A stretch of DNA of 64,000 bases, from the NCBI RefSeq assembly GCF_025971955.1, contig NZ_JAPDMX010000002.1, positions 186,001 to 250,000 on the forward strand. The letters are read 5' to 3'. Position numbers and translations under genes: made by a program. The DNA comes from Shewanella subflava (GTDB taxonomy: Bacteria > Pseudomonadota > Gammaproteobacteria > Enterobacterales > Shewanellaceae). Under the pieces are notes generated by a model. The model was not told where the DNA came from and ran no database searches. It was given only the letters and a program-made list of their open reading frames with translations. This document shows positions 29,411 through 45,511 of this stretch, piece by piece; the first letter of the stretch is position 1; the number at the start of each line of letters is the position of its first letter.

Positions 29411-29487
<77 letters not shown>

Positions 29488-29632
29488 ATTTAACAACGAG
29501 ATTTAATTTAGCTGGTATATCGGTTTTAGACCATATTACCCTCAAAATTTTCAGTTCCAATTCGGAACCAAAATCTAAAATTATTTGAAGTTGATTAAAT
29601 GCTTACGATAAACGAAGTGATTCAAATACAGT

Positions 29633-29709
<77 letters not shown>

Positions 29710-29734
29710 ATTTGATCAATATTATATTGGTTTG

Positions 29735-29802
29735 AAGATAATATCGGGCTCAGCTCTTATTATCCACAAAGGTCGTCGGTTCAAATCCGGCTCCCGCAAC
29801 CA
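29735..29802 (+). pseudogene. tRNA-fMet 3'-half fossil A
   Basis: From AAGGTCGTCGG to the CCA end (29769-29802) it is identical to the tRNA. The anticodon stem begins (TCGGGCTCA) and then runs into unrelated sequence (GCTCTTATTATCC), so the CAT anticodon is lost. The 5' half is absent, so it cannot fold as a tRNA. Confidence 0.85.
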
Positions 29803-29832
29803 ATTTGATAAAATAAAAGTAATAAATACAGT

Positions 29833-29909
<77 letters not shown>

Positions 29910-29933
29910 ATTTATAAACTACATTTTGGTTGA

Positions 29934-30001
29934 AAGATAATATCGGGCTCAGCTCTTATTATCCACAAAGGTCGTAGGTTTAAATCTGGCTATAGCAACC
30001 A
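29934..30001 (+). pseudogene. tRNA-fMet 3'-half fossil B
   Basis: Same structure as fossil A but more decayed: GTAGGTTTAAATCTGG in the T arm and TATAGCAACCA at the end. Confidence 0.8.
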
Positions 30002-30031
30002 ATTTAATAAAATAAAAGTAATAAATACAGT

Positions 30032-30108
<77 letters not shown>

Positions 30109-37365: not shown

Positions 37366-40152
37366 TTGTCCGATTTTCCAGCAATACATAAAAGCCAGAA
37401 TGATCATCGCTTATATCGTTATATCCGTCTCTCAAATAAACTCCGGGTATTATTGGTTGAAGATGTTCAATCTAATCAAGCTGCTGCCTCTATGGCGGTT
37501 CAAGTCGGGCACTTTGATGACCCAGTTGAGCGACCTGGCATGGCGCACTTTTTAGAACATATGCTGTTTTTAGGGACAGAGAAGTATCCTGATCCTGGTG
37601 AATACCATGCTTTTATTAATCAACATGGTGGTAACAACAATGCCTGGACAGGCACTGAGCAAACTAACTTTTTTTATACTATTAATGCTGAAGTGTTTGA
37701 AGAGTCCCTCGATAGATTTAGCCAATTTTTTATCGCGCCAAAATTTGATATCGAATTAGTCGATAGAGAACGCCATGCGATTGAATCAGAATTCAGTCTT
37801 AAGTTAAAAGACGATATTCGTCGCGTTTATCAAGTGCAAAAAGAAACCACCAATCAGGCACACCCCTTTTCAAAGTTTTCGGTAGGCAATTTAACCACAC
37901 TCGATGGCCCAGAATCCGCTTTACGCGAAGAGTTACTGACATTCTACCAACAACAATATTGTGCAAATATCATGACATTGTGCTTGGTTGCCCCCGCTTC
38001 TTTAGACCAATTAGAAGCTTGGGCAAAAACCTATTTTGAAGCGATAGTTAATCGAGGAGTAAGTAAACACTACCCTGAAGCACTGCTGGTTACCGATGCC
38101 GAACGCCTGAAACAAATTGCCATTGTGCCTCTAAAACAACAAAAACGAATTAGTGTTAACTTTGCCCTTCCCGGTATTGACCAATTTTATAAACGCAAAC
38201 CGTTAACCTTCATCAGTCATTTACTGGGCAATGAAAGCCCAGGCAGCCTATTGTCTTATTTAAAAGAACAAGGCCTAGCAAATAATTTATCGGCTGGCGG
38301 GGGCATTAATGGGTTTAACTTTAAAGATTACTCTGTCAGCGTGCAATTAACCGACAAAGGTTATAAAGCTATTGATGATGTGGTGAAGTGTATTTTTGAA
38401 TATATTCAATTAATCAAACTCACCGGATTAGAGGATTGGCGTTATCAAGAACGCGCTAACCTATTAAATACTGCATTTCGATTTCAAGAGCAAATTAAAG
38501 CATTAGATCTTGCCAGCCATCTCAGTATTAATATGCATCATTATGCCGCAGAAGATGTGGTATACGGTGACTACCGCATGGATAATTTAGATGAAGTTGA
38601 GGCGCTTTCATTACTCAATTTAATGCACCCGCGCAACATGCGTTTGCAAATCGTCGCACAAGATCAAGATACCGATAAACAAGCAGCTTGGTATCATACC
38701 CCCTATAAAGTAACGGATATTGCCCCCTCAAGATTAGATTATTGGCAACAACCAGATATCAGATCTGAATTACTTCTGCCCCAAGCCAACCCTTTTATCG
38801 TGCCTAACCCGCAATCGAGACCAGAATTGAGCCAAACACCGGTTCCAGTAATTGTTGCTGAGGGTGAAGGGTATCGACTTTGGCATAGAAAGGATGATGA
38901 ATTCAATGTGCCCAAAGGACATTTGTACTTATCACTTGATTCACAAAAAGCCAGTATGTCACCTCGCCATGCGACGCTTACACGACTTTATGTTGAGTTG
39001 TTACTCGATTATTTAACCGAATCAACCTATCAAGCTGAAGTCGCTGGGCTGAACTACAATATTTATCCACATCAGGGCGGAATTACCTTACATCTCACCG
39101 GCTTTACTGGTAATCAAGAAAGCTTATTATCGTTAATCATTAACAAAGCACGTGAGCGTAATTTTACTCAGGACAGATTTGACATGATCCGTAAACAAAT
39201 TTTACGGAGTTGGCACAATGTCGCTCAGGCAAAGCCTATTTCACAATTGTTTACCAGTTTGACCGTTACCTTACAGAAACGCAGTTTTGAGCCAGCAAGA
39301 ATGGCAGAAGAACTCGAAACGATTACCTTAGATGAATTACATCAACACGTAAGCGACTTTTTTGAAAAGGTCTACTTGGAAGGCTTGGTTTATGGTGATT
39401 GGTTAGTCTCTGAAGCACAGGCTTTAGGGAAACGATTAGAGCATTTACTTTCTTTGGTATCAAAACCCAGCAATGAATCATCAAGAGAGCTTGTTAATTT
39501 ACAAGGTGTTGGTACCTTGCTACGGGAAAAAACCATTCAACATCAAGACAGTGCTATCATTGTTTATTATCAATCGTCTAAGGCGACTACTGAAAAGATG
39601 GCGCTATTTAGTCTGTTGAACCACACCATGTCATCAACGTTTTTCCATGAATTACGCACAAAGCAACAACTTGGTTATATGGTTGGCACAGGATATTTAC
39701 CCCTTAATCGACATCCTGGAATGATTTTTTATATTCAATCCCCAACGACAGGACCAAGAGTTTTACTGGAAGCCATTGACGAGTTTATTGCAGATTTTAG
39801 TTATGCCGTTATGCAAATAACCAATGAACAGTGGGAAAGTACCAAACAGGGCCTCATTAGCCAAATAATGGAACATGACGCTAACCTCAAAACCCGAGGA
39901 CAACGTTATTGGGTAAGTTTAGGCAATAGAGACTATCAATTTGACCAACGTGAAAGTGTCGCCGCTAAAGTTGAAACACTCACCAGAGCGGATTTAATTA
40001 AATTTATGATGCAACGTATGCGCAGCAAGCATTGCGATCGTTTAGTTTTGTTCAGTTGTGGAGAACAACACTCAAAACAGCAACTTATGTCTAACAACAT
40101 GATTTCAGACTTGAGGGCATTCAAACAAGCTGCAGAAAAGTTTCAATTTTAG
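37366..40152 (+). CDS. Pitrilysin/insulinase-type M16 metalloprotease
   Basis: 928 residues, close to E. coli PtrA. The inverted zinc motif HFLEH (His61, Glu64, His65) lies in GMAHFLEHMLFLGTEKYPDP, and the downstream Glu in ESEFSLK. It starts with TTG, preceded by TGGAG at a good distance. No signal peptide is seen, unlike enteric PtrA, so it may act in the cytoplasm. Confidence 0.93.
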   Translation: MSDFPAIHKSQNDHRLYRYIRLSNKLRVLLVEDVQSNQAAASMAVQVGHFDDPVERPGMAHFLEHMLFLGTEKYPDPGEYHAFINQHGGNNNAWTGTEQTNFFYTINAEVFEESLDRFSQFFIAPKFDIELVDRERHAIESEFSLKLKDDIRRVYQVQKETTNQAHPFSKFSVGNLTTLDGPESALREELLTFYQQQYCANIMTLCLVAPASLDQLEAWAKTYFEAIVNRGVSKHYPEALLVTDAERLKQIAIVPLKQQKRISVNFALPGIDQFYKRKPLTFISHLLGNESPGSLLSYLKEQGLANNLSAGGGINGFNFKDYSVSVQLTDKGYKAIDDVVKCIFEYIQLIKLTGLEDWRYQERANLLNTAFRFQEQIKALDLASHLSINMHHYAAEDVVYGDYRMDNLDEVEALSLLNLMHPRNMRLQIVAQDQDTDKQAAWYHTPYKVTDIAPSRLDYWQQPDIRSELLLPQANPFIVPNPQSRPELSQTPVPVIVAEGEGYRLWHRKDDEFNVPKGHLYLSLDSQKASMSPRHATLTRLYVELLLDYLTESTYQAEVAGLNYNIYPHQGGITLHLTGFTGNQESLLSLIINKARERNFTQDRFDMIRKQILRSWHNVAQAKPISQLFTSLTVTLQKRSFEPARMAEELETITLDELHQHVSDFFEKVYLEGLVYGDWLVSEAQALGKRLEHLLSLVSKPSNESSRELVNLQGVGTLLREKTIQHQDSAIIVYYQSSKATTEKMALFSLLNHTMSSTFFHELRTKQQLGYMVGTGYLPLNRHPGMIFYIQSPTTGPRVLLEAIDEFIADFSYAVMQITNEQWESTKQGLISQIMEHDANLKTRGQRYWVSLGNRDYQFDQRESVAAKVETLTRADLIKFMMQRMRSKHCDRLVLFSCGEQHSKQQLMSNNMISDLRAFKQAAEKFQF

Positions 40153-40435: not shown

Positions 40436-43400
40436 ATGCCTAAAATTTTATCTTTTTTACTGCTGATTATTACTATTTTCCAAGCATCCTACACTCATGC
40501 CATGTCTTTTTCTGACTTCAATGAAGAACAGCTAGATATTATCCTCAATTATGAATCCTATACAGTTGCCAACGGATTATCTCAAAACACAGTTACCAGC
40601 ATTGTTGAAGACAGTGAAGGATATGTTTGGATAGGTACTGTTAATGGGATTAATCGGTTTGACGGCGTATCATTCAAACAGTATTTTTTCAATGATGAAA
40701 AAAATGGACTACCAAGCTCGTTTATCAGAAATTTATTAATTGATGACAGTGGCCAATTAATAGTAGGCACCGATAGAGGTTTAGTTTTTTACAATAAAGA
40801 TAAAGATATATTTTATCAATCTAACAATATACATAACATATGGAAAGATGCTATTTGGTCAACATACTATAAAGATGGATACTATTACATAGGCACAGAC
40901 AACAACCTATACATTTTCAATAGCTTACTAACCAAACCAGTAAAGCACTATTATGATGAGAAAATTAAAGAAATAAAAAAGATACGAGTTAAAAATGATA
41001 CCATAATCATAAGAAACTATGACAATGAAATTATTCAAATAAATAAACAAAAAATAACACTAAAACAAACTAAAGTTTTTGATTTCGAAATATTAAATAA
41101 TAAAATAATCTCATCAAAACATGACGGCATCTACATTAATGGAGAGTTTAAAGATACACTTCCTAAAGAAATAAACACCATGTTAATTAACAACAAAGAA
41201 AATTCAATACAAGCTTTTTCCAAAGATTCTATATTCAGAATAATTAACTTAGATGATGAATTTACAACTGAAAAAATTGGCTCATTCGAAATTACACAGT
41301 CACCTAATGGACAATTTACAACGAACATAGGTGATGGCAAGATATTCATATCAAATCTTCTTGATGGATTTAAGATAATAAGCACCCAAAACAATCTAGC
41401 GAAAAAACTCAAATTAGACATAAAAAAAGTATGGTCAATTACGAACGATGAAAAAAAAATATATATAGCAAACGGTTCTGGAGAGGTAAGTGTTTTAAAT
41501 AAAGATCTAAAAATAATAGCAAAAATAAAAACACCAACAATACAAGGTCATAAAACTATTTCTGTCATAAAAAACAACTTGTACATTGGCTCTTCAAGTG
41601 GACTGTATATTTATGACCTTGTAACCAATATTACAAATAAAGTATCCAACGAAAACCTGATTAAAATATCCACAAATCATTCCAATGGAATATCAGCATC
41701 TTCGATAGATGGGAAAATATTAAAATTCAACTTTGATGGGTCATTAGAAAGTGTTTTTGATACTCAAACAAACCATCCAATTTATGATTTTATTGAGGAT
41801 TCAGAAAGACTTTTAATTGCATCACAAAAAGGATTGCTCAGTTACAACAAAACCACTAAAAAAACAAACATTATTTTTGATTCAGATTTTGTTTTCAGCA
41901 TTTTAATTAATAAAGATAACATTTTTCTGGGTACAAGAAGTGGGATTTACGCACTAAATAAGAGTTCAAATAGAATAACCGAGGTATTGAGAACAAATAA
42001 AACAATTTACTCTGTTAATTTTTTAGATGACATTATTATTGCCCCATCAAACACCGAAATAAATTTTCTAGATACTAGTACAGAAAAAACGTATACTATT
42101 AATGAACACAATGGCACCCAAGAAGACTACAGTACCCAATCAATGGTAACATATGGTTCTTCAGTACTAATTGGTGGATTAGATGGCTTAACTGTATTAT
42201 CACCGAAAGATTTAATTAATAAGCTAAATAACGATACTGGCATAAAAGTTGATATTTCAGAGATTTCTATTTTTAACGAAAAAATAAATGTTGGCGAATA
42301 TATATTAGACAAGCCACTTAAATACAAAAAAGGTATAAAACTTAAAAATTCTGACTATCCATTTTCACTATCTTTTAATGTTACAGGATTTAACTCAGAG
42401 AGATTCAATTTTTATTATTATTTAAAAGGTATCGACACAGATTGGCTTCCTAGCAAAGGAAACAATAGTGCTACATATACTAGCCTACCGCATGGTGAAT
42501 ATACTTTCCAAGTTTTTGTTATTGATAAATTAACCGGTAAAAAGTCAGAACCTACTTCCCTTTCTGTAATAATTACTCCCCCATGGTGGCTTTCAATAAA
42601 AGCTAAAATAATTTATAGCTTCATCTCACTTATAATAATATTGTTAATAACCAAGGCCATGTTGCGCCGTAGAGAAATTCAGCAACACATTGCTCTCAGT
42701 GAGGAACGTCTTAAACTATCCCTTTGGGGCAGCGGCGATGAAATGTGGGACTGGGATATTGAAACAGGTGAAATCTTTCGCTCAAACATTTGGGGAACGT
42801 TAGACTTTCCGCAAGATGGACGCAGATCAGGTAAAATCGGTGAAGAGAGTAATATCCACCCCATAGATCAACCCAGAGTTCAAAAAGCACTCAATGATCA
42901 TTTCAGCAATATCACAGATCACTTTGAAATAGCCTACCGTGTAAAAGGCAGAAATAATCAATGGATGTGGATCCTAGACAGGGCCAAAATTGTAGAGCGC
43001 GATCAGAAAGATTACCCCGTGCGTATGACTGGCACAATAAAAGATATTAACAACATCAAACAAGTCGAAGAGCAACTTAAACTCTTTGCTCGCGCGATTG
43101 AAAATATCTCTGAAGGCATGTTCATTTTAAATCAAGAATATGTTTTTGTAGAAGTTAATGAGGCCTGCTGTGAAATTGCATCCTGCAGTCGCGATAACTT
43201 TATGCAACAAAAGCTAGCATTTACCCGTTATCCTGAATCATATTCCGAGCAAATTAGAACGGCTTTACGTCAGCAAGGACGCTGGAGCGGTGAAATTGAA
43301 GCAAAAAAAGGCGATAACAATTTCTTTTTAATGGAATTAACGATTGATGCTATTTACAACGAGCAAGGCGAAACAAGCCACTATGTGGGCGTGTTTTCTG

Positions 43401-44772: not shown

Positions 44773-44789
44773 TTGGCACAGGAAATGCT
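44773..44789 (+). promoter_or_regulatory. Sigma-54-like promoter of the repeat-protein operon
   Basis: TTGGCACAGGAAATGCT has TTGGCAC at -24 and GC at -12, with exactly 10 bp between the invariant GG and GC. It lies 64 bp before the ATG of the repeat protein and 15 bp after the preceding stop. The enhancer site and its activator are not identified. Confidence 0.55.
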
Positions 44790-44852
44790 TATTGATTGTT
44801 AGTTGTCAAAAATAACAATTTAATAATAACCCTGAGCCAAGAGAGATAAAAA

Positions 44853-45341
44853 ATGATTAAAGGAATAATTGCACTTTCGATACTGTCTGCGTTTTCATCT
44901 GTAGTTTTTGCTGACGACATTGATACTCAAATTGAAACACAAACTGCTGGCATCCCTGCTGTTAAAGTCCTAGAAACACAAACTGCTGGCATCCCTGCCG
45001 TTAAAGTCCTAGAAACACAAACTGCTGGCATCCCTGCCGTTAAGGTACTAGAAACACAAACTGCTGGCATCCCTGCCGTTAAAGTCCTAGAAACACAAAC
45101 TGCTGGTATCCCTGCCGTTAAAGTCCTAGAAACACAAACTGCTGGCATCCCTGCCGTTAAAGTCCTAGAAACACAAACTGCTGGCATCCCTGCCGTTAAG
45201 GTACTAGAAACACAAACTGCTGGCATCCCTGCCGTTAAAGTCCTAGAAACACAAACTGCTGGTATCCCTGCCGTTAAAGTACTAGAAACACAAACTGCTG
45301 GCATCCCTGCCGTTAAAGTCCTAAACACGCAAGTAGCTTAA
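44853..45341 (+). CDS. Secreted protein of ten identical 13-residue repeats
   Basis: 162 residues. A signal peptide (MIKGIIALSILSAFSSVVFA, cleavage after VFA) is followed by DDIDTQI, then ten perfect copies of ETQTAGIPAVKVL and a terminal NTQVA. DTQ at the start and NTQ at the end look like capping partial repeats. There is no Cys or dibasic site, and charge cancels within each repeat. The ribosome-binding site AGAGAG lies 7 nt before the ATG. I do not recognise a family. A constant TQT per 13-residue unit would suit a thin beta-solenoid (as in TxT ice-binding proteins); an amyloid/adhesive polymer or a multi-copy secreted peptide precursor are alternatives. Coupled to the small ORF that follows. 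Confidence 0.85.
   Translation: MIKGIIALSILSAFSSVVFADDIDTQIETQTAGIPAVKVLETQTAGIPAVKVLETQTAGIPAVKVLETQTAGIPAVKVLETQTAGIPAVKVLETQTAGIPAVKVLETQTAGIPAVKVLETQTAGIPAVKVLETQTAGIPAVKVLETQTAGIPAVKVLNTQVA
44934..45323 (+). repeat. Ten tandem 39-bp repeats within the secreted protein
   Basis: Units are 39 bp with no spacers. The few base differences (GCT/GCC in unit 1; AAGGTA for AAAGTC in units 3 and 7; GGT for GGC in units 5 and 9; GTA in unit 9) are all synonymous. The order A-B-A-C occurs twice (units 2-5 and 6-9), showing a past 156-bp block duplication. Copy number is likely to vary between strains. Confidence 0.97.
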
Positions 45342-45352
45342 GGAGTTAGACT

Positions 45353-45469
45353 ATGTTTACTTCATTAAAAATTGCATTGGGTTTAGCCAAACCAGCACGT
45401 AAAAAAGTCAAATTACCTGCGGGATTAGAGCATTTAGAAGTGATTCAAGCTAAAGCTTGGTGGAAGTAA
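45353..45469 (+). CDS. 38-residue basic peptide downstream of the repeat protein
   Basis: Starts MFTSLKIALGLAKPARKKVK and ends IQAKAWWK. AGGAG at 45341-45345 gives an excellent ribosome-binding site 7 nt before the ATG and overlaps the repeat-protein stop. The N-terminal part is amphipathic and basic (about +6 net), with a Trp-Trp-Lys end. It has no clear signal peptide. A terminator follows 15 bp later, so the two genes form a closed operon. Function unknown: regulator, membrane-active peptide or assembly helper are all possible. Confidence 0.7.
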   Translation: MFTSLKIALGLAKPARKKVKLPAGLEHLEVIQAKAWWK

Positions 45470-45484
45470 TAACACCAATCAAAC

Positions 45485-45511
45485 AAAAAAGGAGCTAATT
45501 GCTCCTTTTTG
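45485..45511 (+). terminator. Terminator of the repeat-protein operon
   Basis: AAAAAAGGAGC pairs with GCTCCTTTTTG around TAATT. It lies 15 bp after the small ORF stop. Confidence 0.85.

Follow-up and report, generated by a model that had tools for sequence, protein, structure and literature searches.

The ten-unit tandem repeat gene described here, from a 64,000 nt stretch of the Shewanella subflava genome (contig NZ_JAPDMX010000002.1, positions 186,001 to 250,000; hereafter, the window), probably encodes a multi-copy ligand of the receptor specified by the neighbouring gene, and the two would form a polymorphic peptide-to-c-di-GMP signalling pair. Comparison of related genomes reveals a conserved locus, a promoter motif, purifying selection on the repeat unit and co-switching of the unit with the propeller of the receptor. 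Ligand and receptor is the simplest reading of these features: change is confined to the two parts that would come together outside the cytoplasm, and it affects both jointly.

Organization of the Locus

The order of genes and sites at the locus is conserved, and consists of an M16 peptidase, a GGDEF-EAL membrane protein with a periplasmic propeller, a sigma54-type promoter, the repeat gene, and the gene for a 38-residue protein (Table 1). The M16 gene adjoins the receptor gene in Shewanella, in the sister genus g32 and in families f15 and f20, and the receptor gene lies directly 5' of the peptide gene in the Shewanella loci with upstream sequence and in three other genera or families; the order M16, receptor, peptide gene extends to other families. 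Between 37 and 50 kb of the window, the genes flanking the array are those for the M16 peptidase, the GGDEF-EAL protein, FadJ and FadI (Pfam). Elsewhere in the window (29411-30108) there are four consecutive tRNA-Met genes, the last three of which are carried by a tandem repeat of ~199 bp.

Table 1. Features of the repeat-peptide locus in the window.
Feature	Position	Strand	Remarks
M16 (pitrilysin/insulinase-type) peptidase	37366..40152	+	Pfam; H-F-L-E-H zinc motif; signal peptide not obvious
Proposed receptor, 1440 aa	40436..44758	+	Signal peptide, Reg_prop propeller and Y_Y_Y, TM helix, PAS, GGDEF, EAL
Hypervariable receptor part (propeller, residues 80-640)	40673..42355	+	Mean p-distance 0.70
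Sigma54-type promoter (putative), TTGGCAC-AGGAAA-TGCTT	44773..44790	+	GG-N10-GC; 79 nt 5' of start codon
Signal peptide MIKGIIALSILSAFSSVVFA (20 residues)	44853..44912	+	By inspection; kept between sister species with different arrays
Pro-region DDIDTQI	44913..44933	+	Differs among species
Array, ten 13-residue units ETQTAGIPAVKVL	44934..45323	+	39 bp each; TRF score 724; proposed multi-copy ligand
C-terminal NTQVA and stop	45324..45341	+	Finishes last unit GIPAVKVLNTQVA
38-aa protein MFTSLKIALGLAKPARKKVKLPAGLEHLEVIQAKAWWK	45353..45469	+	Conserved partner, 11 nt 3' of repeat gene
Intrinsic-terminator-like hairpin	45486..45510	+	10 bp stem, T tail; 3' of two-gene transcript

A strict TGGCAY-N6-TGC motif is found 5' of the repeat gene in 100 of 105 loci, compared with 0.05 expected in shuffled upstream sequences. 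Within the window alone the sigma54-type motif occurs three times against 1.8 expected, which is not significant, and the evidence for a promoter is the conserved position across loci and not the lone window match. The hairpin search returned two matches against 1.4 expected, and is weak on its own.

The gene for the 38-aa protein is present in 120 of the 130 genomes of the genus; it also occurs in a second genus of the family and in two further families of the order. Beyond Shewanellaceae and the two related families, nothing convincing was found in 395 genomes of the order and 369 of the class, and the protein has no family match in NCBIfam. Six of the ten Shewanella genomes without this gene are also without a full-length receptor orthologue. 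Two of the six were examined, and in both the M16 gene lies directly against fadJ, the entire cassette being missing. The other four, a Shewanella subclade (L226-L229; genomes G018, G056, G161 and G165), retain the receptor and the promoter motif; there, a single-copy 60-residue peptide with a conserved Cys and an RFPIVIF-like C-terminus is found instead of the array. In a different subclade (L160, L162, L158, L174 and L166; genomes G132, G140, G153, G155 and G156) the 38-aa gene is tandemly duplicated.

The Repeat Gene and its Unit

Translation of the forward strand at 44853-45341 gives a protein of 162 aa consisting of MIKGIIALSILSAFSSVVFA-DDIDTQI, ten copies of ETQTAGIPAVKVL and NTQVA before the stop codon, so that the original prediction, of a signal peptide followed by ten identical 13-residue units, was exact. 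The claim that the 39-bp units differ only silently was also borne out: they vary solely at four codon alternations (GCT/GCC, GGC/GGT, AAA/AAG and GTC/GTA), with pS = 0.136 and pN = 0 between units. No described family had been recognized, and the searches agreed, with none above the curated cut-offs of Pfam or NCBIfam; weak matches of the repeats to mIF3, PhaM and GspN were judged spurious. A plasmid search gave no match.

The natural unit is probably GIPAVKVLETQTA, shifted from the boundary originally drawn for ETQTAGIPAVKVL, since the C-terminus of the protein falls at precisely that point (...GIPAVKVLNTQVA*). Most family members (111 of 118) terminate in alanine. For several species, cleavage of the signal peptide at AFA|AAPNVKF would yield an N-terminus matching that at a unit boundary (ELA|AAPNVKF). 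Together, the protein end at a unit boundary and the matching N-terminus suggest, without proving, that the array is cut after Ala. No protease or exporter for the repeat peptide was identified.

Distribution and Selection of the Repeats

A search with the repeat protein matched named Shewanella records and 50 of 99 related genomes. The units differ by species (for example TAGIPAVKV, VAGHPYVKF, LAAAPNVKF, TAALPWVKV and VAGLPNIKF) and are near-identical within one protein, but share the core A-[GAS]-x-P-x-[VI]-[KR]-[FVLY], in which the proline is invariant, the next-but-one residue is V, I or L, and the one after that is K or R. Their period is 9, 11, 12, 13, 14, 15 or 16 and more residues. Copy number, which it had been proposed to compare among relatives, runs from 1 to more than 30, with some homologues having one unit or none; counts from draft assemblies (L012, L070, L072, L074, L076 and others) are lower bounds, since these break inside the array. 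The exported peptides of family f15 are about 40 residues long and carry no repeats.

These comparisons undo the earlier suggestion of a TxT beta-solenoid with an ice-binding or surface-templating function. TQT does recur at a fixed 13-residue period in the window repeat, as was observed originally, but across Shewanella it is not conserved: most homologues are without TQT, which is confined to the relatives of the window sequence, and the register common to the homologues is instead the core given above. The period is not fixed (9-16+), some relatives have a single unit, and there is no Pfam match above cut-off, to an ice-binding family or any other. A single-sequence AlphaFold model of the repeat protein is beta-rich but, for lack of an alignment, of low confidence (pLDDT 50, pTM 0.28), and is uninformative on a solenoid fold. 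As TQT is not a feature of the family, the ice-binding idea loses its basis, and we consider it very improbable.

Across 109 arrays from the genus, the medians are 0.28 for pS, 0.014 for pN and 0.07 for pN/pS, with pN below pS in 105 of them and pS reaching 0.6. Such low pN at a median pS of 0.28 indicates that the repeat peptide is kept by selection over substantial divergence. Selection and very recent expansion had both been offered for the silent variation; the first is favoured, and neither chance nor recent expansion alone accounts for the pattern. Nor do the repeats drift freely among homologues, as species differ while the units are homogeneous within each array. A functionless, slippage-prone tandem repeat hitchhiking beside the sensor gene would give copy numbers that differ among species, as found, but can scarcely be reconciled with a pN/pS of 0.07 where pS extends to 0.6, with the conservation of the promoter or with the way in which array and receptor co-vary.

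The Proposed Receptor

The periplasmic Reg_prop and Y_Y_Y part of the receptor occupies residues ~30-720 (Pfam), and its relatives in the PDB, by sequence, are 4a2l, 3v9f and 3ott, with a phmmer E-value of 5.5e-48 to sensors of the Bacteroides HTCS (e.g. BT4663, 4a2l). The AlphaFold model of the sensor domain, likewise from a single sequence, is of low confidence for lack of an alignment (pLDDT 36). Variation is concentrated outside the cell membrane, with a mean p-distance in the propeller (Table 1) that contrasts with 0.14-0.26 in the cytosolic domains (0.14 in EAL), and sister species with near-invariant cytosolic domains may have propellers that are 55-70% different. The GGDEF, EAL and DDFG motifs are intact in all 87 aligned receptors.

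In three loci (L283, L258 and L320; genomes G048, G102 and G133) the receptor frame is broken or shortened and the array and 38-aa gene are kept; these frames may be pseudogenes or assembly errors. Two loci (L351 in G101 and L352 in G055) represent an additional paralogue of the receptor, full-length and with 48-49% identity to that of the window, that has neither a peptide gene nor a sigma54-type site downstream.

Co-variation of Unit and Propeller

Co-variation was analysed in 87 loci, with one genome per species. In clades drawn from the cytosolic part, unit distance correlates with propeller distance (r = 0.73, 98 pairs, P = 0.0002 by permutation), and the correlation persists in a partial Mantel test that controls for the cytosolic part (r = 0.23, P = 0.0002). 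The number of permutations sets a floor to these P values, and distances of 60-70% are near saturation. When the propeller is controlled for, the unit retains some correlation with the cytosolic part (r = 0.35), of the kind expected from shared ancestry. The 38-aa protein does not co-vary with the receptor (partial Mantel with the propeller, r = 0.04, P = 0.10), though its gene is only a few bases from the array. Propeller and array are some 2 kb apart, and the coding sequence between them is conserved; linkage alone therefore fails to explain the joint change.

Where propeller and cytosolic part disagree on relationships, the unit sides with the propeller in 29 of 29 triplets, which perhaps reflect about five switches by our estimate, as triplets share species and are not independent. 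Of the discordant triplets, 24 could be tested for the M16 neighbour, and in every one it sides with the cytosolic part; on this ground introgression of the cytosolic middle of the receptor alone was rejected. When M16 is used to define the triplets, the unit again goes with the propeller, in 49 of 49. Peptide type and sensor type thus appear to be co-inherited against the genome background. Phage, predators or some other outside agent could select on array and propeller alike, driving variation in both without contact between the two, and the variable parts are indeed both extracytoplasmic; we regard this as improbable, since independent targets would not stay matched in all of the discordant triplets when the genome background points elsewhere.

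Pairs of loci with identical units have propeller distances below 0.48 in 17 of 18 cases, the exception being L278/L303, with divergent propellers (0.59). For sisters with the same unit, dS is often similar in the propeller and the cytosolic part. For sisters with different units, propeller dS is saturated while cytosolic dS is 0.15-0.8, indicating allele replacement rather than drift where units differ. In these pairs, the promoter, signal peptide and 38-aa gene are 75-99% identical, and the mature array alone differs alongside the propeller. At the level of residues, unit positions -1, +1 and +7 from the proline have mean Z scores of 2.1, 1.2 and 1.5 with propeller columns, compared with 0.3, 0.25 and 0.5 with cytosolic columns, though a few of the latter also score high. 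The signals are broad and not pocket-like in this divergent alignment, and so no contact map is claimed.

Proposed Mechanism

We propose that the sigma54-type promoter would drive a two-gene unit of the repeat gene and 38-aa gene, and that the signal peptide would export the repeat product. With between 1 and more than 30 copies of the short motif AGxPx[VI][KR]h, this product would either display the copies or be cut into them. The periplasmic propeller of the adjacent, upstream-encoded GGDEF-EAL protein would recognize this motif, and the protein would then alter its c-di-GMP output; many identical units would increase the dose or valency of the ligand. Propeller and array would be swapped as matched pairs, leaving the cytosolic domains, promoter, signal peptide and 38-aa protein unchanged. 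Physical binding, processing, c-di-GMP output with its direction, and action within or between cells are steps that we infer. Of the ideas originally put forward, that of a repeated peptide precursor is the best fit, though here the neighbouring gene would encode the receptor.

The array might instead remain a polymer in the periplasm or at the surface, whether as a scaffold, an adhesive or an amyloid-like fibre, with the propeller sensing the state of the matrix and no diffusible signal involved. Copy numbers of more than 30, the near-identity of units and the beta-rich, if low-confidence, single-sequence model would suit a polymer, co-variation with the receptor fits as well, and c-di-GMP enzymes commonly control the biofilm matrix. 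This is nevertheless unlikely, as linkers of variable length (9-mer to 16-mer) and single-unit relatives are ill suited to a regular fibre, and the 37-50 kb region flanking the array has no secretion or nucleator genes of Curli or Fap type. The amyloid idea as such explains none of the receptor co-variation.

A peptide ligand with a matched receptor could serve self-recognition throughout the genus, each Shewanella lineage secreting its own 9-16-residue peptide in many copies, reading it with its own propeller receptor, which would set c-di-GMP, and thereby distinguishing kin from non-kin in choosing between biofilm and swimming, with alleles exchanged in pairs. This extension is tentative, and we give it slightly less than an even chance.

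Comparison with Known Systems

The agr AIP-AgrC, ComX-ComP and CSP-ComD pherotypes resemble the Shewanella locus in the adjacency of peptide and membrane-receptor genes, in a hypervariable extracytoplasmic sensor joined to a conserved cytosolic core, and in the joint exchange of matched peptide and sensor alleles. They differ in that the Shewanella output is GGDEF-EAL (c-di-GMP) with no histidine kinase, the sequences are unrelated, and the precursor has a Sec-type signal peptide followed by many identical units, in a Gram-negative locus with a sigma54-type promoter where a dedicated exporter or modifying enzyme is not seen. Membership in agr, ComQXPA or CSP proper was rejected on the Reg_prop-Y_Y_Y-PAS-GGDEF-EAL architecture of the receptor and its M16 peptidase and fadJ/fadI neighbours.

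The periplasmic Reg_prop propeller and Y_Y_Y sensor are shared with the Bacteroides HTCS (e.g. BT4663, PDB 4a2l), histidine kinase/AraC hybrids found beside glycan genes, unlike the Shewanella protein with its PAS-GGDEF-EAL output and adjacent peptide gene. The known propeller sensors of the HTCS bind oligosaccharides, not peptides, and this counts against a peptide receptor. Yeast alpha-factor and fungal KEP precursors also have a signal peptide, a pro-region and tandem identical units, but the Shewanella array is bacterial, is adjacent to its proposed receptor and lacks dibasic Kex2 spacers, consecutive units being joined directly, at A|G or A|A. LapD/LapG similarly couples a GGDEF-EAL membrane protein to a periplasmic partner, but the Shewanella protein has intact EAL and GGDEF motifs and a propeller as its sensor, and its proposed partner is a polymorphic peptide repeat.

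Significance

In a literature search of partial coverage, which took in few subscription papers, we found no published description of the locus of S. oneidensis MR-1, nor of peptide/c-di-GMP receptors or pherotypes of this kind, and on that basis signalling by repeat peptide and propeller is apparently new. MR-1 (G131) appears to carry the system, with 11 units of AGHPYVKFKPFEV, and direct testing is therefore possible; another species of the S. oneidensis group (L260 type) has a different unit, GAPNVKFKPVELA. If the proposal is right, a peptide ligand feeds straight into c-di-GMP metabolism through matched alleles in a Gram-negative genus, one that is used in bioelectrochemistry and biofilm work. 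One of the many orphan GGDEF-EAL receptors would gain a ligand, propeller sensors would reach beyond glycans to peptides, and matched and mismatched ligand-receptor pairs would become available for studies of specificity. It would also provide a concrete, testable answer to why a bacterium maintains ten identical peptide units under selection.
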